Assembly: GCA_020431405.1 (NCBI GenBank)
Contig: JAGQIK010000013.1
Span: 1-42,414, forward strand
Reading direction: 5' to 3'
DNA: 42,414 nucleotides
From: Myxococcales bacterium
GTDB taxonomy: Bacteria; Myxococcota_A; Polyangia; GCA-2747355
Shown piece after piece: positions 14,944 to 33,930 of this stretch (positions within the stretch are counted from its first letter, which is position 1; each line of letters begins with the position of its first letter). The translations under genes and the position numbers were made by a program. The notes below the pieces were generated by a model, which worked only from the letters and a program-made list of their open reading frames with translations, was not told the DNA's origin and made no database searches.

Positions 14944-17900
14944 ATGGCAACGACGACGACAGAGGTGCGTGCGCACTTGGTGCGAGCGCTGGAGGCAGAC
15001 GTCGTCGGTCCGTTCGATCCCGAGCTGCGCGAGGAGCTGCTCGATCTGCCGCCGAGCCGCTTCTATCTGACGGGCTTTCTGGCGCCGGAGGCGGCGCGTG
15101 AGCAGAACGATCCGGAGGCCGAGGACGACACGCCGGAAGCCGGCGACGTGCTCGACGAGGAAGACTCGGCCGGCCAGGAGCCCGAGCCGAAGCAGCGCCG
15201 GCGCTTTCCGGCGTCGATGGGCGTGACGGTGCTGGTGCCGGCGGCGGCGCGCGAGGTGACGGCGACGGTCTCGTATGCCGACTACGTGCCGGAGGCCACC
15301 GAGGCGCTGCCCGATGACGAGGGGCTGCCTGGAAAGAAGCGTGGGCGGGCGAAGATCTTGTGGCGGCGCATCGAGCGCGAGCCGGTGAGCACGACGCTGC
15401 CGCTGGAGGCTTCGGCGATCGCCAAGGGTGTGGCGGTGGCCAAGGCCGGCGGAGTCAAGCTGCGCGGTGCGCTGAAGCCGGCGTTGGCGCCAGGGTTGCC
15501 CGAGGGGACGCGCGCGCTGTCGTTGTTCGTGGTCAACGAGAGGCCGGTCGAAGGCGACGTGCTCAAGGCCAAGGACGACGCGTTCATCTTTCAGGTGGGG
15601 CTCTCGCTGTCGAGCGACGTGGGCTTCGTCGCGCGGCCCAACCGGCGTGGCGCGTCATCGGGCGATCTCGACGAGAGGACGGCCGACCTGCAGTTTCGCA
15701 CCAAGGTCGAGCTGGCGGTGGGTCACGGCGTCTCGGTGGCCGAGCCGCGGGCGGACGCCGACGGGCAGGTGCGCCGCGTCGAGACGGCGTGGCTGCCGCG
15801 CTACGAGGTCAAGCGCGTGATGACGCGCGAGGTCGATGGCGTCGAGACGGCGATGGAGACGCTGGCGGCGCTGCACGCGCGCGATGACCCGCCAGCAGCC
15901 GTGCGCGCGGCTTTGGGGCAGCTGCCCGAGCTCTACGGCGGATGGATCGCCGCGCAGCGCGCCGTCGAGGTGGGCGGCGCCGAGCGGGAGGAGACCAAGA
16001 CGACGCTGCTCGGCGAGGCCGAGCGGGCGCGCCGTCGTATCGCCTCGGGCATCGAGCGGCTGGCGAGCGACGCCGAGGTGCGCGAGGCGTTCTGTCTGGC
16101 CAACCAGGCGATGGCGCGCGCGGCGAGGCAGCGAAACCCCGAGCGGTACGAAGACGGCGGCGCGCCCAAGTGGCGTCTCTTTCAGCTCGCCTTCGTGCTG
16201 CTCAATATCGACGGCGTCTCGGATGAACGCCACGTCGATCGCGAGATTGCCGAGCTGATCTTCTTTCCGACCGGCGGCGGCAAGACCGAGGCGTATCTTG
16301 GCGTGATCGCCGTGACGCTGCTGCTAAGGCGCATGCGCGGCCAGGCGCGAGCGGACGAGGGCCTCGGCGTGGCGGTGATCCTGCGCTACACGCTGCGCCT
16401 GCTCACGCTCGATCAGCTCGGCCGCGCGGCGACGTTGATCTGCGCGCTCGAGCTGCTTCGCCGCGAGCAGCCGGCCAAGCTCGGCGAGGTGCGATTTTCG
16501 GTGGGCCTGTGGGTCGGGCGTGCGGCGACGCCCAACACCATGGACGACGCGCGTAAGCAGGTCACCGAGTACAAGAACAGCAAGTCGGCGAGCAAGCGAT
16601 CGCCGTGCCCGCTGACCCATTGTCCGTGGTGTCGCAGCGAGCTCGACCGCGACAGTCTGACGTTGGCGCCGGCGCGCGGGCCCACCGAGGTGATCGTCAG
16701 CTGCAACAACTGGCGCGACAAGTGTCCCTTCAACACGCGGCAGCACGAAGAAGGCGTGCCGGTGGTCTTCGTCGACGAGCAGGTCTACCGCGAGCTTCCC
16801 TGCTTCATCGTCGGCACCGTCGACAAGTTCGCGATGCTGCCGTGGCGCGGCGAGACGGGGATGCTGTTCGGGCGGGTGCTCGCCTACGAGGGGCGCAAGT
16901 GCATCGGCCCGCTCGATGGCAAGTCGGTGCAGGCGAAGAAGAGCGCTACGAAGGTTCCCGACGGTTTTCGGCCGCCAGAGCTTATCGTGCAGGACGAGCT
17001 GCACCTGATCTCGGGGCCGCTGGGCACGATGGTGGGCCTCTACGAGACGGCGATCGAGTTTCTCTCGCGCCGCGGGGCGCAAGGCGATGCGCCCGTGCGG
17101 CCCAAGGTGATCGCCTCGACGGCGACGGTGCGGCGCGCTGCCGAGCAGGTTCGCGCGCTGTTCGAGCGGCCGGACCTGGCGATGTTCCCGCCGGCCGGCA
17201 TCGACGACTCCGAGACGTACTTCGCGCGCGTCGACCACGAGTCGGTGGGGCGGCTGTACGTCGGCCTCGCCGCGTCGGGACGCGCGATGAAGGCGATCCT
17301 GCTGCGCGCGTATGTCTCGATGCTGTGCGCGGCGCAGCGCCACTACCAGACCGGCGGTGAGAAGCTGCAGGCGGCCGACCCCTACATGACCGTGGTGGGC
17401 TACTTCAACAGCCTGCGCGAGCTGGGCGGCATGCGTCGGCTGGTCGAGGACGAGGTGCGCACGCGCGCCGACCGCATCGAGAATCGCAGGCCGCGCGACT
17501 TCGACGGTGACCATCCGTGGTACCGGCGGCGCGAGCTGAGCAGCGAGCCGGTGGAGCTGACCAGCCGCGAGAGCACGGCCAACGTCTCCAAGACCAAGGC
17601 GCGCCTGGGGCTGCACGCGGTCGAGGAGGGCTGCGTCGACGTGCTGCTGGCCAGCAACATGATCTCGGTCGGCGTCGACATCGACCGGCTGGGCCTGATG
17701 ATCATCGCCGGTCAGCCCAAGACCACCGCCGAGTACATCCAGGCCTCGAGCCGCGTCGGGCGTGACGTGCGGCGGCCGGGTCTGGCGCTGACGTGTCTCA
17801 ACGTGCACAAGCCGCGTGACCGCTCGCACTACGAACGCTTCGTCGCCTACCACCAGAGCTTCTATCGCGACGTCGAGGCGACCAGCGTGACGCCGTTTTC

Positions 17901-18372
17901 CGGGCCGGCGCTCGAGCGCGGCTTGGCCGGCGTGATGGTGGCGATGACGCGGCTCTGCGAAACGGAAATGACGCCGCCCAAGGCGGCTGTCGAGATCGGC
18001 ACGCATCGCGCGCTGGCCGACGCAGCCGTCGAGGCGCTGGCGCGGCGGGCCGGTCAGCACGCGGCGGGCGCTGCGCAGGCGGCCAGCGAGCTCGAAGACG
18101 CCGTGCGCGACCGCGCGCGCAACCTGGTCGATGCCTGGCAGACGCTGATCAAACAGGACAGCGAGGACGCCGGCGCGCCGCGACGCTCCTACTCCAAGTA
18201 CGACGTAGAGCGCGGCGGTCGGCCGCTCCTGCACACCTGGGACGAGCGCGAGGATCGCCAGGGCGCCGAGGCCAAGTTCCGCGCGCCGACATCGATGCGC
18301 GACGTCGAGGAGACGGTGCATCTATGGCTCGAGCGCGGCAACCTCGGCGGGCGAGGGGGCGGCAATGTCTAG
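14944..18372 (+). CDS. drmA: DISARM helicase-domain protein DrmA
   Basis: The 1142-residue protein starts at ATG 14944 with a good AGGGAG site. The N-terminus has the DrmA-type segment SRFYLTGFLAPE (about 39-50) followed by an acidic linker. Walker A is FFPTGGGKT (440-448) and the Walker B/DEAD-like box is QDELH (683-687). A Cys cluster (CPLTHCPWC and CNNWRDKC, about 558-597) looks like a zinc ribbon inserted between helicase motifs. The C-terminal lobe has NMISVGVDIDRLG near 905 and motif VI QASSRVGRD near 935. With DrmB it forms the core DISARM complex that loads on incoming phage DNA. It overlaps drmB by eight bases. Confidence 0.95.
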   Translation: MATTTTEVRAHLVRALEADVVGPFDPELREELLDLPPSRFYLTGFLAPEAAREQNDPEAEDDTPEAGDVLDEEDSAGQEPEPKQRRRFPASMGVTVLVPAAAREVTATVSYADYVPEATEALPDDEGLPGKKRGRAKILWRRIEREPVSTTLPLEASAIAKGVAVAKAGGVKLRGALKPALAPGLPEGTRALSLFVVNERPVEGDVLKAKDDAFIFQVGLSLSSDVGFVARPNRRGASSGDLDERTADLQFRTKVELAVGHGVSVAEPRADADGQVRRVETAWLPRYEVKRVMTREVDGVETAMETLAALHARDDPPAAVRAALGQLPELYGGWIAAQRAVEVGGAEREETKTTLLGEAERARRRIASGIERLASDAEVREAFCLANQAMARAARQRNPERYEDGGAPKWRLFQLAFVLLNIDGVSDERHVDREIAELIFFPTGGGKTEAYLGVIAVTLLLRRMRGQARADEGLGVAVILRYTLRLLTLDQLGRAATLICALELLRREQPAKLGEVRFSVGLWVGRAATPNTMDDARKQVTEYKNSKSASKRSPCPLTHCPWCRSELDRDSLTLAPARGPTEVIVSCNNWRDKCPFNTRQHEEGVPVVFVDEQVYRELPCFIVGTVDKFAMLPWRGETGMLFGRVLAYEGRKCIGPLDGKSVQAKKSATKVPDGFRPPELIVQDELHLISGPLGTMVGLYETAIEFLSRRGAQGDAPVRPKVIASTATVRRAAEQVRALFERPDLAMFPPAGIDDSETYFARVDHESVGRLYVGLAASGRAMKAILLRAYVSMLCAAQRHYQTGGEKLQAADPYMTVVGYFNSLRELGGMRRLVEDEVRTRADRIENRRPRDFDGDHPWYRRRELSSEPVELTSRESTANVSKTKARLGLHAVEEGCVDVLLASNMISVGVDIDRLGLMIIAGQPKTTAEYIQASSRVGRDVRRPGLALTCLNVHKPRDRSHYERFVAYHQSFYRDVEATSVTPFSGPALERGLAGVMVAMTRLCETEMTPPKAAVEIGTHRALADAAVEALARRAGQHAAGAAQAASELEDAVRDRARNLVDAWQTLIKQDSEDAGAPRRSYSKYDVERGGRPLLHTWDEREDRQGAEAKFRAPTSMRDVEETVHLWLERGNLGGRGGGNV

Positions 18373-20230
18373 GAAGCGCTCGCACGGCTACGGCAAGAAG
18401 AACGTGGTGCCACCTGAGGGGCGCGTTCGCGCGAGCCAGATCGTCACGACCTTCGGACCGGGCTCGATGGTCGACCTGCTCGATCACGCCATCCTCGTCG
18501 GCGGCCTCGACTACTGGGAACACCGCCGCGGCAAGACCGTGCTGCAGAACGTGCGGCTACGCGATCGGCTGGCAGAGATGTTTGCGGAGGCCGACATCGA
18601 GCTGGCCAAGTTTGACACCTTCGTCGAGCCGCCAGCCGGCGATGAGAATCAGCCCGATAAAGGGCACGGCGTCCAGGCGCTCGAGTTCCCGCAGTGGTTT
18701 GTCTGCCAAGAGTGCAGAGCGCTGGTACACGCGCGGCACCTCGGCGATCCCAAGGGCGAGGGCAAGCGCTACCGTCATCACTGTGCGGAACGGCGACAAA
18801 AGAAGGGTGCGGACTGCGTCCCGGTTCGCTTCGTCGCGGCCTGCAAAGAGGGACACCTATCGGAGTGGCCCTGGCCCGCCTGGGTACATCAGGGGCGCGG
18901 CGACTGCGTGATGCCTGACCTGCGACTCGAAGAAGGCGAGACGGGTGACTTCTCCGAGGTCAGGGTCGTCTGCAGCGCGTGCGGCGCTAGGCGCAGGCTC
19001 GCTGACGCCGTGCCGGAGAGCGCGCGGCCGCGCTGTCAGGGCGAGCGGCCCTGGCTCGGTCCACGCGCCCGAGAAACCTGCGGCGAAAAGATGCGCCTCT
19101 TGGTGCGCACTGCCAGCAACGGCTACTTCGCGCAGGTGGTCAGCGCGCTGTCGATCCCCGAGCGCGGCCTCGAGCTCTACGAGTTCGTGCACGACAACCT
19201 CAAGACGTTTCAGCTCTTCGACAGCGCCGAGGAGATCGAGATGGTGCGGCGCAAAGAGCCGTTCAAGACCGCGCTCGAGTCGTACGACAACGCGGCGGTG
19301 TTCAAGACGCTCGAGGCGGTAAAGAGCGGCAAGCGGCAGGCGCGCGATCCGCTACGCACGGCCGAGTTCAAGCAGTTGACCCAGCAGCCGGAAGAGCGGC
19401 CCGGAGAGCTGCCCAACGAGGAGTCGACATTCTTCGCGCGCCGCGCGGTGTGCGACGAGCCGCTGCCGGCCGGCGTAGGCAGCGTGGTGCTCGCCAAGAA
19501 GCTGCTCGAGCTGCGCGTACAGGTCGGCTTCACGCGACTCGAAGCGGCGACTCCCGACCTGCAGGGCGAGTACGACATCGGCGCGCGCACGCAGGTGCTG
19601 GCGCTCAACCGCGACTGGCTGCCGGCAACGCAGATCCAGGGCGAGGGCATCCTCGTGGTGCTCGACGAGCAGGCCGTGCAGGCGTGGGAGAAGCGGCCGG
19701 CGGTGCTGGCGCGGCACAAGGCGCTGGTGGCCGGCTACGACAAGTGGCTCGAGACCGCGTCGTACAAGCCGCCGTTTCCCGGCGCTCGCTTCTACCTCTT
19801 GCACTCGCTTTCACACCTACTGATCTCGGCGATCTCGCTCGAGTGCGGCTACGCGGCGAGCGCTATCCGCGAGCGCATCTATTGCAGTCTCAAGACCGAC
19901 ACGCAACCGATGGCGGCGATCCTGCTGATGACGGGCAGCTCGGGCGCCGAGGGCACCCTCGGTGGCCTCGTCGAGCAGGGGCGGCGTATCCGCGGGCACC
20001 TGCGCCACGCCTTCGATCTGGGCACGCTCTGCTCGAGCGATCCTGTCTGCGCAGCGCACTCGCCCAAGGCCGACCCGGCCGAGCGCTACCTCGAAGGCGC
20101 GGCCTGCCACGGCTGCCTCTACATCGCCGAGTGCTCGTGCGAGCGCTTCAACCGCTACCTCGACCGCGCGCTGGTGGTGCCGACCATCGGGCACACGCCA
20201 GAGCTGGCCTTCTTCTCGGAGCGTCCGTGA
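18365..20230 (+). CDS. drmB: DISARM DUF1998 protein DrmB
   Basis: The 621-residue product begins inside the end of drmA, so the two are translationally coupled. The N-terminus carries the DrmB-type motif RASQIVTTFGPGSMVDLLD (about 22-40). A zinc-ribbon-like CQECRALVH follows near 114-122, with paired cysteines VCSACGARRR near 200. The C-terminal DUF1998 region has LHSLSHLLI (about 480), LLMTGSSGAEGTLGGL near 520 and a cysteine cluster made of CSSDPVCAAH and CHGCLYIAECSCERFNR (about 558-597). DrmB partners DrmA, and the pair is the conserved signature of all DISARM classes. Length and cysteine pattern look intact. Its TGA overlaps the drmC GTG by four bases. Confidence 0.95.
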   Translation: MSRKRSHGYGKKNVVPPEGRVRASQIVTTFGPGSMVDLLDHAILVGGLDYWEHRRGKTVLQNVRLRDRLAEMFAEADIELAKFDTFVEPPAGDENQPDKGHGVQALEFPQWFVCQECRALVHARHLGDPKGEGKRYRHHCAERRQKKGADCVPVRFVAACKEGHLSEWPWPAWVHQGRGDCVMPDLRLEEGETGDFSEVRVVCSACGARRRLADAVPESARPRCQGERPWLGPRARETCGEKMRLLVRTASNGYFAQVVSALSIPERGLELYEFVHDNLKTFQLFDSAEEIEMVRRKEPFKTALESYDNAAVFKTLEAVKSGKRQARDPLRTAEFKQLTQQPEERPGELPNEESTFFARRAVCDEPLPAGVGSVVLAKKLLELRVQVGFTRLEAATPDLQGEYDIGARTQVLALNRDWLPATQIQGEGILVVLDEQAVQAWEKRPAVLARHKALVAGYDKWLETASYKPPFPGARFYLLHSLSHLLISAISLECGYAASAIRERIYCSLKTDTQPMAAILLMTGSSGAEGTLGGLVEQGRRIRGHLRHAFDLGTLCSSDPVCAAHSPKADPAERYLEGAACHGCLYIAECSCERFNRYLDRALVVPTIGHTPELAFFSERP

Positions 20231-26933: not shown

Positions 26934-27707
26934 ATGCGACCTTCGACATCCGAGCATCGAGCCCCTCGTCGGTTCCACCACACCCTCGCCGCGCTGCTGG
27001 CGGCGGCCGCGCTGCTCGCTTTGCCGGCGCTGCTGGCTTCGTGCAGCGACAGCAGCGGCGGCAAGCCCGATTCGACGGCGACAAGTGACGCCAACGGCGG
27101 CAAGGACGGCTCGGGCAGCAAAGACGTCGGTGCTGGCGACGGGCCGGCGGCGGACCAGCCAGCTGGCGCAGACGGGCCCGTGGCCGATCGGGGAGCCGAC
27201 AGCATCGCGAGCGGCGATGGTGCAACCGACACGTGTCGCCAAGCGAGCCAGCGCTGCGGCGGCGACAACGGCAAGTGCTGCAGCGGTCTGACGTGCTGCA
27301 CGGGCGTGCCCGTGCCCGCGGGCCAGGAGTACTGCGCCGCCATATGTCCCAAGAGCGACCGCAACATCAAGTACAACGTGCGCGCCGTCGACGAGGACAA
27401 GCTGCTGCGGCAGCTGATGTCGTTGCCGATCAGCAGCTGGACCTACAACAACGAGCCGAGCCGCATCCGCCATATCGGACCGATGGCGCAAGACTTCAAG
27501 AAGGTCTTCGGCGTGGGCGGCGACGACGACCGCTTCATCGCGCCGGTGGACGCTGACGGCGTCTCGCTGCTGGCGATCAAGGCGATCTATCGACGCCTGC
27601 AGCGACTCGAAAAGCAGGCCGCCTCGACCGCCGCAGAAAATCGCGCGCTGCGCCGGCTGCTCGCGCGCTGGCTGCTCGACAACCGACAGAGCTGCACGAC
27701 TCACTAG
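26934..27707 (+). CDS. Lipoprotein with C-terminal S74 (tail-spike intramolecular chaperone) domain
   Basis: The 257-residue protein has a signal peptide with lipobox LLASC (Cys37), then an Asp/Gly/Ser-rich stalk (about 38-98). A compact Cys-rich module follows (CRQASQRCGG, CCSGLTCC, CAAIC; about 101-138). The C-terminus is a peptidase S74 domain with SDRNIKYNVRAVDEDKLLRQ (141-160), a strand/helix WTYNNEPSRIRHIGPMAQDF and a final coiled-coil-prone helix. S141 and K146 match the Ser-x4-Lys self-cleavage dyad of phage endosialidase and tail-spike chaperones. These domains trimerise, fold the upstream fibre and cut themselves off. Here the cut would free the C-terminus from the lipid-anchored part, which is an unusual use on a cell-surface lipoprotein. 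Confidence 0.85.
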   Translation: MRPSTSEHRAPRRFHHTLAALLAAAALLALPALLASCSDSSGGKPDSTATSDANGGKDGSGSKDVGAGDGPAADQPAGADGPVADRGADSIASGDGATDTCRQASQRCGGDNGKCCSGLTCCTGVPVPAGQEYCAAICPKSDRNIKYNVRAVDEDKLLRQLMSLPISSWTYNNEPSRIRHIGPMAQDFKKVFGVGGDDDRFIAPVDADGVSLLAIKAIYRRLQRLEKQAASTAAENRALRRLLARWLLDNRQSCTTH

Positions 27708-27735: not shown

Positions 27736-29139
27736 CTAGTAGCTGCCGCGGCTGCGCGCGCGCCGGCGTACGCGCAGACCGCGCGTGATGCGATACAGGT
27801 CGCGCGTGCCCGACATGCCAAACAGGTGCGCGCCGGCTTGGCGCAGCGCGGGCAGCGTGTGGGCGTCGACGCCGCCCGAGGCCTTGATCAGCTTGGTGTT
27901 GCCCACCACGTCGCGCATGGTGCGGACGTCAGCCGGCGACGCACCGCGCGGGCCGTAGCCGGTGCTGGTCTTGATCGCCAGCGCGCGCGTGCTCTTGACG
28001 ATGGCGGCCGCGCGGCGCAGCAGCGGCTCGTCGAGCTGCGACGTCTCGACGATGACTTTGACTTTGACGTCGACACCGCGCGCCTCGCCGAGCGCTTTCG
28101 CGCTGGCCACCACCACGTCGATGTCGCGTTTGACGCCGCGATAGAGCTGTCCGGCGCGCCGCGTGTGACCGGCCTTTTCGGCGCTGCGCGCGTTCAAGAG
28201 CTTGTGCACGTCGATGATCATGTCGAGCTCGAGCTTCTTGCCGCCCGCGGCCGCGACACCCTCGATCGCGCGCTTGGCGTCTTCGAGCTTGCGCGCGGTC
28301 GGCACGCGCTGCCAGTCGCGGCCGGCCTGCTGAAACTTCTCGGTGGGGAAGCCGATGACGGCGGTCGCGATGGTGTTCGAGTGCTTGAGCACGTTGCCGA
28401 TCACGCCCGCGAACTCGGGCCGCACCACCATCGCGCGCACGCCCTTCTTGCGCGCCCAGCGCGCCTCGCGGCGCACGATCTCGGCGCTGGTCGGTCCGAG
28501 CAGCGTGTGCTCGACCAGTGACAGCGTCGTGTCGTAGCGCTGCCGGCGCAGCCGGAACTTGCCGTCGCCGCGCTCGTGGAAGCGAAGGACCGGCAGGCTC
28601 CAGCGCTTGAACCAGCCCTCTTCCTGGGTCGCACCGATGCTCGAGCTGGCGCCAGGCAGCGTGACCATGCCCTTGACGTGCGGGCGCAGCACCGGGTCGG
28701 CGAGCACGCGCGCCCACAGCTCCATGAACACCGAGTGTGACCAGTGCTTGGCGCGGTCGACGGCGGAGCGCAGCTCGGGGTCGACCTTCGACTGCGGGAT
28801 GCGCAGCACGTGCTCGACCTCGAATGGGCTGATCACCACTTTGCCCGCCTCGCGCAGCCGTCGCGCGACGTCCCAGCCGTAGCGCAGATTCTCTAGGACG
28901 CTCCCCTTGCCGCCGCTCGAGATCGGCCCCGACAGGTAGTAGATGTCCTTGCTGCGGCTCGCTGCCTGCTCGGCGCGCGTGTGGCTGACCATGTACTGCT
29001 GGATGCGGGCGAGGTCGGCTTCGATGGCCCGCGAGTAGGGCTTTTCCGCGTGCGCCGCCGCCGACAGCAGCAGCAGCAGGATCACGCCGAGGGCCATCAA
29101 CGAAGCGGTCGTGCGAGCTCTGGCAGCCATCCAAGTCAT
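27736..29139 (-). CDS. Exported fusion of a DUF4406-like domain and a deoxyribose-phosphate aldolase (DERA)
   Basis: The 467-residue protein has a clear Sec signal peptide (LMALGVILLLLLSAAAHA, cleavage after residue 31). The N-terminal domain (about 65-190) resembles DUF4406, which is related to nucleoside 2-deoxyribosyltransferase: IYYLSGPISSGG, LREAGKVVISPFE and GMVTLPGASSSIGATQEE. The C-terminal domain (about 208-445) is DERA-like: HTLLGPTSAEIV, ATAVIGFPTEK and KKLELDMIIDV. The Schiff-base lysine K390 lies in AIKTSTG, and K419 in KASGGV. DERA cleaves deoxyribose-5-phosphate to glyceraldehyde-3-phosphate and acetaldehyde, and is normally cytosolic and stand-alone. Both the fusion and the export are unusual. 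Together the parts could in principle process deoxynucleosides outside the cytoplasm. The start lacks a strong Shine-Dalgarno; ATG 29130 is an alternative. Confidence 0.82.
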   Translation of the reverse strand: MTWMAARARTTASLMALGVILLLLLSAAAHAEKPYSRAIEADLARIQQYMVSHTRAEQAASRSKDIYYLSGPISSGGKGSVLENLRYGWDVARRLREAGKVVISPFEVEHVLRIPQSKVDPELRSAVDRAKHWSHSVFMELWARVLADPVLRPHVKGMVTLPGASSSIGATQEEGWFKRWSLPVLRFHERGDGKFRLRRQRYDTTLSLVEHTLLGPTSAEIVRREARWARKKGVRAMVVRPEFAGVIGNVLKHSNTIATAVIGFPTEKFQQAGRDWQRVPTARKLEDAKRAIEGVAAAGGKKLELDMIIDVHKLLNARSAEKAGHTRRAGQLYRGVKRDIDVVVASAKALGEARGVDVKVKVIVETSQLDEPLLRRAAAIVKSTRALAIKTSTGYGPRGASPADVRTMRDVVGNTKLIKASGGVDAHTLPALRQAGAHLFGMSGTRDLYRITRGLRVRRRARSRGSY

Positions 29140-30915: not shown

Positions 30916-33900
30916 CTAGGGCTGCGTCACGTTCCAGACGAACACGTCGTTGCCGCCCTTGCTCGTCAGCGCGACGCCGCCGAAGGTGGCGCCGCTCGAG
31001 CTGAAGTAGCCGGTGAGGGCGACGTGGCCGTTGGGGGCGACGGCGATGTCATAGCCGTAGTCGCTGCTGATGCCGCCGCCGGAGGTGGCCCAGATGAACT
31101 TGCCGTCGGTGGTCGAGAGCTTGGCGGCGAAGACGTCGTACGACGACGAGAGCGAGGTCAGCGTGGTGCTGCCGAACGCGACGCTGTAGCGGTAGTAGCC
31201 GCCGATGTAGGGGTTGCCTTGACCGTCGACGCCGATGGCGTAGCCGATGTCGGAGCTGGTGCTGCCCGCGCTCACGGCCCAGAGGAACGCGCCCTGTGGC
31301 GAGAGCTTGGTGACGAAGAGGTCGCTCGAGCCTTTCGACGTGAGGGTGGTCGTGCCCACCGTGGCCGTACCGGCAAACGAGCCGGTGACGAAGACGTTGC
31401 CGCTGCGGTCGACGGCGACGCCGCGGCCGGCGTTCGAGCTGCTGCCGCCCGCGCTCTTGGCCCACGTCCAGCTGCCCGTGGGCGAGAGCTTGGCGACGAC
31501 GATGTCCGATGAGCCTGACACCGTGAGCGTGCCGAAGGTCGACGTGGTGCTGATCGAGCCGGTGACGTAGGCGTTGCCCGCCCCGTCGACGGCGACGCCA
31601 TAGCCGTAGTCGTAGCTGGTGCTGCCGCCCGAGGCGGCCCACACGACCTGCCCCTGCGCGTCGAGCTTGAGCACGAAGATGTCGGCCGAGCCGCGTGCGG
31701 TGAGGGTTTTGCTGCCGAAGGTGGCGCTGCTGTAGAAGTAGCCGGCGACGTAGCTGTTGCCCGCGACGTCGGTGGCGATCTTGTAGGCGAGATCGGAGCT
31801 GGTGCTGCCGCCGGCGGTGACCCACTGGAACTGGCCGCTGGGCGAGAGCTTGGCGACGAAGACGTCGGTGGAGCCGACCGAGGTGACCGTCTTGGTGCCG
31901 AAGGTGGCGGTGGTGCTGAAGCGCCCGGCGACGTAGACGTTGCCGGCGGGATCGACGCTCACCGAGTGCGCGTAGTCGCTGCTGGTGCCGCCCGCCGTGC
32001 TGACCCACACGACCTTGCCGTTGGGATCGAGCTTGGCGACGAAGATGTCGTAGCCGCCCTTGGAGGTGACCGTCGTGGTGTCGAAGGTCGCGCTGGAGTA
32101 AAACGTGCCAGCGACATAGACGTTGCCCGCGGCGTCTTTGGCGACGCCGTAGCCGTAGTCGGTGCTGGTGCCGCCCGCGCCGAGGGCGAACGGCTTGGAG
32201 ACGATCACGCAGCCGGCGATCTGCGACCAAGCCGACGTCGACTTGACCGGATCGCAGACGCCGCAGCCGCCGTCCTTGTCGCCCGTCGCGTAGCAGCTGC
32301 CGCCGATCAGGCACTTGCCCGTGGGCGGCGTCCAGTTGTAGCGATCGGTTGCCGGATCGCAGCTGCCGCAGCCCGCGGGGCGGTTGACGCCGGGCAGGTA
32401 GCACAGGTCGTCGATCAGGCAGAACGAGCCCTTGACGGTCCACGAGCTGTTGCTCGCGGTGGGATCACATTCGCCGCAGACGAGCGGGTGCTTGTCACCG
32501 GTGTTGTAGCACTGGTTGTCGATGAAGCATTTGTTGGCGATGGGGGTCCAGCCCTTGGGGTCTTTGCTCGGATCGCAGGCGCGACACGTGGTGGTCGTGT
32601 CCTGCGTGCCGGCGGTGTAGCAGGCGCCGCCGATGGCGCAGTGGTTGGCCGTCACGCTCCACTGCGTGTTGCTCAGCGATGGCGTGCAGGCCGTGCAGCT
32701 CGTGGGCCCAGCCGCGCCAGAGGCGTAGCAGACGCCGTCGATCTGGCACATGTTGCTGGCGACGGTCCAGCCGGTCTTGCTCGCCGACGGCTGACACTCG
32801 GCGCAGCCGGTCGCGTCCTTGACGCCGGGCAGGTAGCAGAAGTCGTTGATCAGGCAGAACGAGCCTTTGACGGTCCAGGAGGCCTGGCTGACGGTGGGGT
32901 CGCACTCGGCGCAGGCGAGCGGGTGTTTGGCGCCGCTCGCGTAGCAGGTGCCGTCGATCGAGCAGCTGTTGGGATCGGGCGTCCAGTCGCTCTTGCTCTT
33001 GGTCGGATCGCAGCTGAGACAGCCGCCGCCGGCGGCCTTGTCGCCGCTCTTGAAGCACGTGCCCGCGATGAGGCAGTCGTTGCCCTTGACCGTCCACGCG
33101 CTGGTGCTCGCGAGCGGATCACACTCGCCGCAGCCGCCGCCAACGACGTTCTTTTCGCCCTGCTTGTAGCAAACGCCGTCGATCTGGCAGACGGTGCTCG
33201 GCGTGGTCCAGTCGGTGTTTGTCTTGCTCGGGTCGCAGACTTGGCACTTGTCGGGGGTCGTGTCGCCCGCCTTGTAGCAGGCGCCGGCGATCAGACAGGT
33301 GCCCGGCATGATCGTCTTCGGCCCGCAGCCGCCGGCGCCGTCACAGCCGTCGTCGGTGCAGCTCAGCCCGTCGGAGCAGGTCGCCGAAAAATCTTCGCCC
33401 TTGCACACGCCGGCCTGGCAGCTGTCGTTCTTGGTGCAGGCGTTTCCGTCGTCGCAGGCGACGGCGTCGAACGACGTGGTCCAGTTGGTGGGGTCGACCG
33501 ACGGGTCGCACTTGGAGCAGGGGCGATCGGGAGACGTGTCGCCAGCCTGAAAGCACTTGGTCTCGGTTTGGCCGTTGACGGTGACCGGCAGCACGCAGAA
33601 GCCGGGCTGCGGTTTGTTTTCGCACTTGCCGAGACCGAGGCAGCTGTCGTCGGTGCAGGCGAGCCCATCGTCACAGTTCTGAAAGCTCGCCGGCCGACAG
33701 AGATAGTTGTCGTCGCAGATCGGCTGGATGGCGCAGGTGTCGTGCGCGTTGCAGGGCTCGCCGATGGTCGTGCAAGGCTGCAGATTGCCCGCCTCGATGG
33801 CGTCCGCGACGGTGTTGCCGTCTTGGCGGCCGCCGTCTTGATACAGCGGAGCCCAGCCGCTGTCGCCGCAGCCGGAAGCTGCGGTAAGCCAACCAGCGAC

Positions 33901-33930
33901 ACAAACAGCGATCAACACGCGCGAATTCAT
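30916..33930 (-). CDS. Large lipoprotein: Cys-rich tandem repeats followed by an SBBP-type beta-propeller
   Basis: The 1004-residue protein has a signal peptide with lipobox ASGC (about 18-21). Residues about 80-200 hold CDDGLACTDDSC-type modules. About ten tandem repeats of 36-38 residues follow (about 205-580), each with the pattern C-x-I-D/A-G-x-C-Y...G-D-K...C-x-x-C-D-P...W-T, for example CQIDGVCYKQGEK and CLIAGTCFKSGDK. The C-terminus (about 585-1004) has seven repeats of about 60 residues with DAAGNVYVAGTFYSSATF and DIFVAKLDPNGKVVW phrases. These are SBBP-like blades, and seven of them make one complete propeller. This is a surface-exposed, disulphide-rich stalk carrying a binding head; adhesion or binding is inferred. 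Confidence 0.85.
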   Translation of the reverse strand: MNSRVLIAVCVAGWLTAASGCGDSGWAPLYQDGGRQDGNTVADAIEAGNLQPCTTIGEPCNAHDTCAIQPICDDNYLCRPASFQNCDDGLACTDDSCLGLGKCENKPQPGFCVLPVTVNGQTETKCFQAGDTSPDRPCSKCDPSVDPTNWTTSFDAVACDDGNACTKNDSCQAGVCKGEDFSATCSDGLSCTDDGCDGAGGCGPKTIMPGTCLIAGACYKAGDTTPDKCQVCDPSKTNTDWTTPSTVCQIDGVCYKQGEKNVVGGGCGECDPLASTSAWTVKGNDCLIAGTCFKSGDKAAGGGCLSCDPTKSKSDWTPDPNSCSIDGTCYASGAKHPLACAECDPTVSQASWTVKGSFCLINDFCYLPGVKDATGCAECQPSASKTGWTVASNMCQIDGVCYASGAAGPTSCTACTPSLSNTQWSVTANHCAIGGACYTAGTQDTTTTCRACDPSKDPKGWTPIANKCFIDNQCYNTGDKHPLVCGECDPTASNSSWTVKGSFCLIDDLCYLPGVNRPAGCGSCDPATDRYNWTPPTGKCLIGGSCYATGDKDGGCGVCDPVKSTSAWSQIAGCVIVSKPFALGAGGTSTDYGYGVAKDAAGNVYVAGTFYSSATFDTTTVTSKGGYDIFVAKLDPNGKVVWVSTAGGTSSDYAHSVSVDPAGNVYVAGRFSTTATFGTKTVTSVGSTDVFVAKLSPSGQFQWVTAGGSTSSDLAYKIATDVAGNSYVAGYFYSSATFGSKTLTARGSADIFVLKLDAQGQVVWAASGGSTSYDYGYGVAVDGAGNAYVTGSISTTSTFGTLTVSGSSDIVVAKLSPTGSWTWAKSAGGSSSNAGRGVAVDRSGNVFVTGSFAGTATVGTTTLTSKGSSDLFVTKLSPQGAFLWAVSAGSTSSDIGYAIGVDGQGNPYIGGYYRYSVAFGSTTLTSLSSSYDVFAAKLSTTDGKFIWATSGGGISSDYGYDIAVAPNGHVALTGYFSSSGATFGGVALTSKGGNDVFVWNVTQP

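Follow-up and report, generated by a model that had tools for sequence, protein, structure and literature searches.

A gene fusing a predicted signal sequence, an NDT-related domain and a DERA domain in a Myxococcales bacterium

Deoxyribose-phosphate aldolases (DERAs) are cytosolic as a rule and are viewed as enzymes of nucleoside catabolism, cleaving deoxyribose-5-phosphate to glyceraldehyde-3-phosphate and acetaldehyde. In the window, which is the whole stretch of DNA analyzed here (42,414 nucleotides from a Myxococcales bacterium), one gene encodes a Sec-type signal sequence, a domain related to the nucleoside-deoxyribosyltransferase (NDT) superfamily and a DERA domain in a single chain. 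What might such a protein do outside the cytoplasm? We tentatively suggest, with somewhat less than even confidence, that it is exported and works, in the periplasm or as a secreted enzyme, as a glycosidase-aldolase acting on 2'-deoxynucleoside 5'-monophosphates (dNMPs). Export, both activities, the dNMP substrate, the coupling of the two steps and the physiological role are features that we infer from the sequence.

Architecture of the fusion gene and its paralog

The open reading frame that the initial annotation had placed at 27736-29139 was confirmed by the open frame itself and by a full-length paralog. It lies on the minus strand, as do all features given below, and encodes 467 amino acids, the stop codon being included in these coordinates. 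Residues 1-31 form the predicted Sec signal sequence (29047-29139; AHA|EK), residues 66-189 the DUF4406/NDT-superfamily-like core (28573-28944), and residues 203-447 the DERA domain (27799-28533). The paralog, at locus L031:2139-3563 (G000:C455) of this genome, is 74% identical over 452 residues and consists of the same three parts. Because two copies with the same architecture reside on different contigs, a frameshift or assembly artifact was ruled out. We consider it highly probable that both domains and the signal sequence are present in the fusion.

Between the copies, dN was 0.15 for the N-domain, 0.17 for the DERA domain, 0.93 for the signal sequence and 0.52 for the tail (last 20 residues), as would be expected if both domains are under constraint while leader and tail are free to vary. 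The dN/dS ratios, 0.36 for the N-domain and 0.49 for the DERA domain, are upper-side estimates, since a GC3 of 0.92 compresses dS.

The NDT-related domain and its putative active site

The N-terminal domain had been annotated as DUF4406. Direct membership in this family was rejected: a Pfam search of the N-domain returned no significant family, and PF14359 (DUF4406) gave no match to either copy up to an E value of 10. DUF4406 was also detected in none of 59 related genomes. What stood of the assignment is a remote kinship, visible in profile-profile comparison and, weakly, in a match to PHROG 355, 'nucleoside 2-deoxyribosyltransferase' (E 9e-4). For the comparison, viral DUF4406 genes were collected by a DNA pattern for YLAGPMTG, and four of them were confirmed as PF14359. 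When both N-domains were aligned to these sequences by hhalign, the probability was 86.5, the P value 4.5e-6 and the score 39.2 over 95 columns; the best of 200 shuffles (100 full and 100 block-wise column) scored 23.7 and the reversed profile 10.2. A repeat with a smaller DUF4406 set gave a P value of 4.9e-5. At the level of profiles, the N-domain was thereby shown to be remotely homologous to DUF4406 across the whole domain. It shares with DUF4406, found here mostly on phage contigs, the YLxGP, N, P and SxGAxxE motifs, but differs from it in escaping detection by Pfam, in its 22-31% identity, in an extended helix region preceding the last strands and in the signal sequence. Searched against the PDB, the DUF4406 profile matched NDT structures most closely (E 1.4e-4), with CMP N-glycosidases at 0.2-0.3. 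In a relative from the same class, a minus-strand ORF of 603 codons (L038) encodes a phage-like exonuclease-type chain with a C-terminal PHROG 355/DUF4406-like domain (RRVYVCHPYRN...).

An AlphaFold model of the whole protein from its single sequence was unusable (pLDDT 44.6). The N-domain was modeled alone, with DUF4406 rows, because a joint MAFFT alignment had set these rows against the wrong half of the fusion; this model reached a mean pLDDT of 78.9 and a pTM of 0.74. Its top structural matches were 1t1j (Z 9.8), NDTs (Z 7.7 and 7.5), DNPH1 (Z 6.9) and MilB (Z 6.4), most of them under Z 8 and in part expected, since DUF4406 homologs guided the model. Foldseek returned a best E value of 2.3e-3 and no PDB match at E <= 0.001.

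Eight residues, Tyr68, Gly71, Pro72, Asn84, Pro105, Ser167, Gly169 and Glu173, are common to all 26 DUF4406 rows. Tyr68 (28936-28938) aligns with Tyr24 of DNPH1 and Tyr7 of NDT, Ser167 (28639-28641) with the phosphate-binding Ser98 of DNPH1, and Glu173 (28621-28623) with its nucleophile Glu104 (PMC10603095). By alignment via DUF4406, Tyr68 and Glu173 occupy the positions of the catalytic Tyr and nucleophilic Glu of the NDT superfamily; they also correspond to Tyr6 and Glu103 of DmtZ, whose Ala mutants are inactive (PMC12884076). The acid/base Asp of the superfamily (Asn in a few members; Asp80 in DNPH1) is replaced by Glu140 (28720-28722), in a column that is Asp in 18 of the 26 DUF4406 rows. 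Both copies carry Glu140 as well as Tyr68, Ser167 and Glu173. As the aligned Tyr, Ser and Glu are kept, the N-domain has the appearance of a working enzyme with a single conservative substitution, and this change from Asp to Glu weakens the catalytic claim without overturning it. The annotation of the domain as nucleoside-deoxyribosyltransferase-like held in so far as it is NDT-like, and was sharpened by the alignment of Ser167 and Glu173 with the dNMP hydrolase DNPH1. Ser167, situated ahead of the nucleophile, is present in every DUF4406 row and is therefore not specific to DNPH1. With DNPH1/Rcl (2'-deoxynucleoside 5'-phosphate N-hydrolase) and MilB (CMP N-glycosidase) the fusion shares the Tyr, Glu and Ser positions, and the modeled N-domain resembles them in fold at the modest Z scores given above; the fusion differs from them in Glu140, in giving no direct sequence match, in the signal sequence and in the attached DERA.

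We propose that the N-domain would hydrolyze the N-glycosidic bond of dNMPs via a covalent intermediate between the sugar and Glu173. Tyr68 would orient this intermediate, Glu140 would act as acid/base and Ser167 would grip the 5'-phosphate, leaving the base and 2-deoxyribose-5-phosphate as products. An alternative that we regard as unlikely is that catalysis is confined to the exported aldolase, whose substrate would be deoxyribose-5-phosphate or a different sugar phosphate, and that the NDT-like half is non-catalytic and serves nucleotide binding or assembly. Such a role would fit Glu140 in place of the general-acid Asp, the divergence of the N-domain beyond Pfam detection and the complete Lys/Lys/Asp set of the DERA half, but not the retention of Tyr68, Ser167 and Glu173 by both copies, nor the conservation of the N-domain between them, which at least equals that of the DERA half.

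It is rather improbable that the N-domain is instead a transferase, moving deoxyribose or deoxyribose-5-phosphate between bases in the manner of DmtZ or NDT, or an enzyme acting on ribonucleotides, with DERA removing leaked sugar phosphate. Ser167 takes the place of the Ser with which DNPH1 and MilB bind phosphate, which favors a 5'-phosphate substrate, and a fusion to DERA is sensible only if free deoxyribose-5-phosphate is released. For transfer speak the occurrence of both hydrolases and transferases in the superfamily (PMC12884076), the NDTs as nearest PDB matches of the DUF4406 profile, and Pro105, invariant in DUF4406 and perhaps equivalent to the Pro tied to transferases in work on DmtZ (PMC12884076). 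DmtZ, an NDT-family enzyme of Z-genome phages, resembles the fusion in superfamily and Tyr/Glu logic; it hydrolyzes dAMP to adenine and deoxyribose-5-phosphate and is partly a transferase (PMC12884076). Unlike the fusion, it is a phage enzyme with neither an aldolase nor a signal sequence described.

The DERA half and its relatives

NCBIfam TIGR00126 (deoC) matches the C-terminal half with an E value of 8.9e-26 and 90.6 bits, short of the equivalog cutoff of 117.3, and we regard this half as a divergent homolog that is not assigned as a deoC equivalog. A phmmer search of the PDB retrieved 33 sequences, almost exclusively DERAs, the best of them at an E value of 5.9e-13. Lys390 (27970-27972), Lys419 (27883-27885) and Asp306 (28222-28224) are invariant in an alignment of 19 sequences comprising the fusion, its paralog and 17 other DERAs, and both lysines were also placed by alignment with solved DERAs. 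From established knowledge of DERA, we take them to be equivalent to the Schiff-base lysine Lys167, the second active-site lysine Lys201 and Asp102 of the E. coli enzyme. The initial annotation had pointed to both key lysines and had named a missing catalytic Asp beforehand as a refuting observation; the lysines are as described, and the Asp is present.

This half thus shares with DeoC (TIGR00126/PF01791) the C-terminal homology and the Lys, Lys and Asp residues, and differs from it in the signal sequence, the N-terminal fusion, the sub-equivalog score and several loops. Insertions of about 10 and of 14 residues follow the GFP strand and the Asp306 strand, respectively, and the GGVD loop is one residue shorter and has no counterpart to the Arg/Lys in GG[IV]R. 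These loop changes are common to both copies and may reflect a shift in specificity. Glu210 replaces the usual Asp of the IDHTLL motif, an exchange also seen in four of the aligned natural DERAs. In the proposed two-step enzyme, the DERA domain would cleave 2-deoxyribose-5-phosphate through a Schiff base on Lys390, together with Lys419 and Asp306, and the end products would be glyceraldehyde-3-phosphate and acetaldehyde. There is a slim chance that both active sites have moved to another substrate, either a different sugar phosphate or one used in signaling instead of nutrition. The general catalytic residues of DERA are all kept and the genomic neighbors suggest no pathway, which argues against such a move; the altered loops of both copies, the TIGR00126 score under the cutoff and the signaling role suspected for exported chorismate mutase fusions (PMC10520331) would be consistent with it.

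The combination of domains appears to be rare. An N-domain profile run against 317 genomes of the class and 377 of a phylum sample (overlapping sets, some 570 genomes) found nothing else but one spurious match, in G502 (E 5.6e-4), which proved to be an unrelated protein when the ORF was read. In the phylum sample, the full-length fusion profile recovered nothing but DERA halves, and the phage and plasmid collections contained no N-domain relatives. Scans of the genome collection and of viral contigs, which depend on short exact peptides so that rarer relatives may exist, revealed no fusion, and in the ORFs read for the best 80 of 573 candidate DERAs of the genome collection there was no NDT-like extension. 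Long open frames around other DERAs were rejected as fusions of this kind, as they had encapsulation-peptide-like or Cys-rich N termini or other domains, and no NDT domain. No DERA motifs were found near 52 viral DUF4406 genes, so that gene neighborhoods lend no support to a DUF4406-DERA link. The initial annotation knew of no described periplasmic fusion, and the open-access literature likewise yielded no exported DERA and no NDT-DERA fusion.

Ordinary DERAs of the class (L032:5100-6000, L005, L010, L016 and L019) carry an N-terminal helix and a Cys-rich segment resembling microcompartment encapsulation peptides, and some have a further domain ahead of the aldolase. In a gammaproteobacterial MAG, the ORF ending near position 3657 of L175 places DERA behind an apparent ribose-5-phosphate isomerase B domain (ALGADHGGFGLK...), which would be a further DERA fusion involving sugar phosphates.

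Predicted export, genomic context and proposed function

In the fusion, the N terminus reads MTWMAARARTTASLMALGVILLLLLSAAAHA|EKP. It combines a positive n-region with a hydrophobic core, whose best 15-mer has a mean Kyte-Doolittle value of 2.76, and with an AxA site; cleavage is predicted at about A31|E32. The paralog, VVTRRLVRVSVLVIIALLLAAPRARA|DE, shows the same three features in a different spelling, so that the signal peptide of the initial annotation is borne out as sequence features in both copies. An upstream stop lies only 19 codons before the listed start, and every likely start therefore retains the signal segment. A genuine signal sequence at the N terminus was seen in none of 114 further DERA ORFs, the single signal-like match being a segment internal to an ORF. 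That the N-terminal segment is a membrane anchor or no export signal at all, and the enzyme cytoplasmic, as DERAs are as a rule, is very improbable, given the n-region, core and AxA site in both copies despite the divergence of the segment, the mature chain's lack of any further hydrophobic stretch, and the absence of genuine cases among the 114 DERA ORFs.

The fusion gene stands alone, convergent with a lipoprotein-like gene at 26934-27707 of the window that ends in a Peptidase_S74 intramolecular chaperone domain, and divergent from an FAD monooxygenase gene. Peptidase_S74 domains are usual in phage tail spikes. The paralog adjoins an acyltransferase-like gene and lipoprotein-like genes. No operon evidence is common to the two loci: neither copy belongs to an operon with nucleotide or transport genes, and neither is flanked by nuclease, transporter or defense genes. 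The suggestion that the enzyme salvages or destroys products of prey or phage DNA found no direct support, no observation bearing on such DNA in particular. Elsewhere, the genome encodes a separate ordinary DERA (C362), which speaks for the two-step reading. It also has a single nuclease of the Endonuclease_NS type and five proteins with a 5'-nucleotidase C domain, compatible with extracellular nucleotide use but without a link to the fusion gene; the five 5'-nucleotidase-type proteins could compete with the fusion for dNMPs. Also in the window, at 14944-20230, a helicase gene precedes one whose product has an MrfA Zn-binding (MZB) domain, and the pair may represent a DNA-repair helicase of the MrfAB type encoded in two frames. 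An exported-looking protein of 1004 amino acids, encoded at 30916-33930, has numerous Cys-rich repeats (CYxxG...CxxCDP) as well as SBBP beta-propeller repeats.

DNPH1-type hydrolases are viewed as nucleotide-pool sanitizers. The two-step reading draws chiefly on the fact that they yield deoxyribose-5-phosphate (PMC3834327), the substrate of DERA, so that the fusion would join consecutive steps. Points against this reading are the N-domain unrecognized by Pfam, Glu in place of the general-acid Asp, the retained Pro105, the DERA half under the deoC cutoff with its loop insertions and altered GGV loop, and the missing operon. The nearest conceptual precedent, by analogy, is the exported fusions of chorismate mutase and cyclohexadienyl dehydratase, which are likewise rare, exported and composed of two consecutive metabolic enzymes, but belong to another pathway and other folds, occur in nine species and have transporter genes nearby (PMC10520331). 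They are active, show no channeling and may serve signaling (PMC10520331).

The novelty of the fusion lies in its architecture and predicted location, the component families being already known. Its role would likely be the use of deoxynucleotides outside the cytoplasm. It is possible, if doubtful, that this single exported protein, combining a dNMP N-glycosidase with an aldolase, represents the first extracytoplasmic deoxynucleotide route to triose phosphate and acetaldehyde. If so, the sugar of DNA would be cleaved extracytoplasmically, with no need for nucleoside phosphorylase, phosphopentomutase or nucleoside import, and a natural fusion of the two enzymes behind an export signal would put deoxynucleotide breakdown in the cell envelope. 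The fusion would also offer a one-chain catalyst converting dNMPs to glyceraldehyde-3-phosphate and acetaldehyde, and the gene-fusion argument would suggest that the uncharacterized DUF4406 family functions in releasing deoxyribose-5-phosphate.
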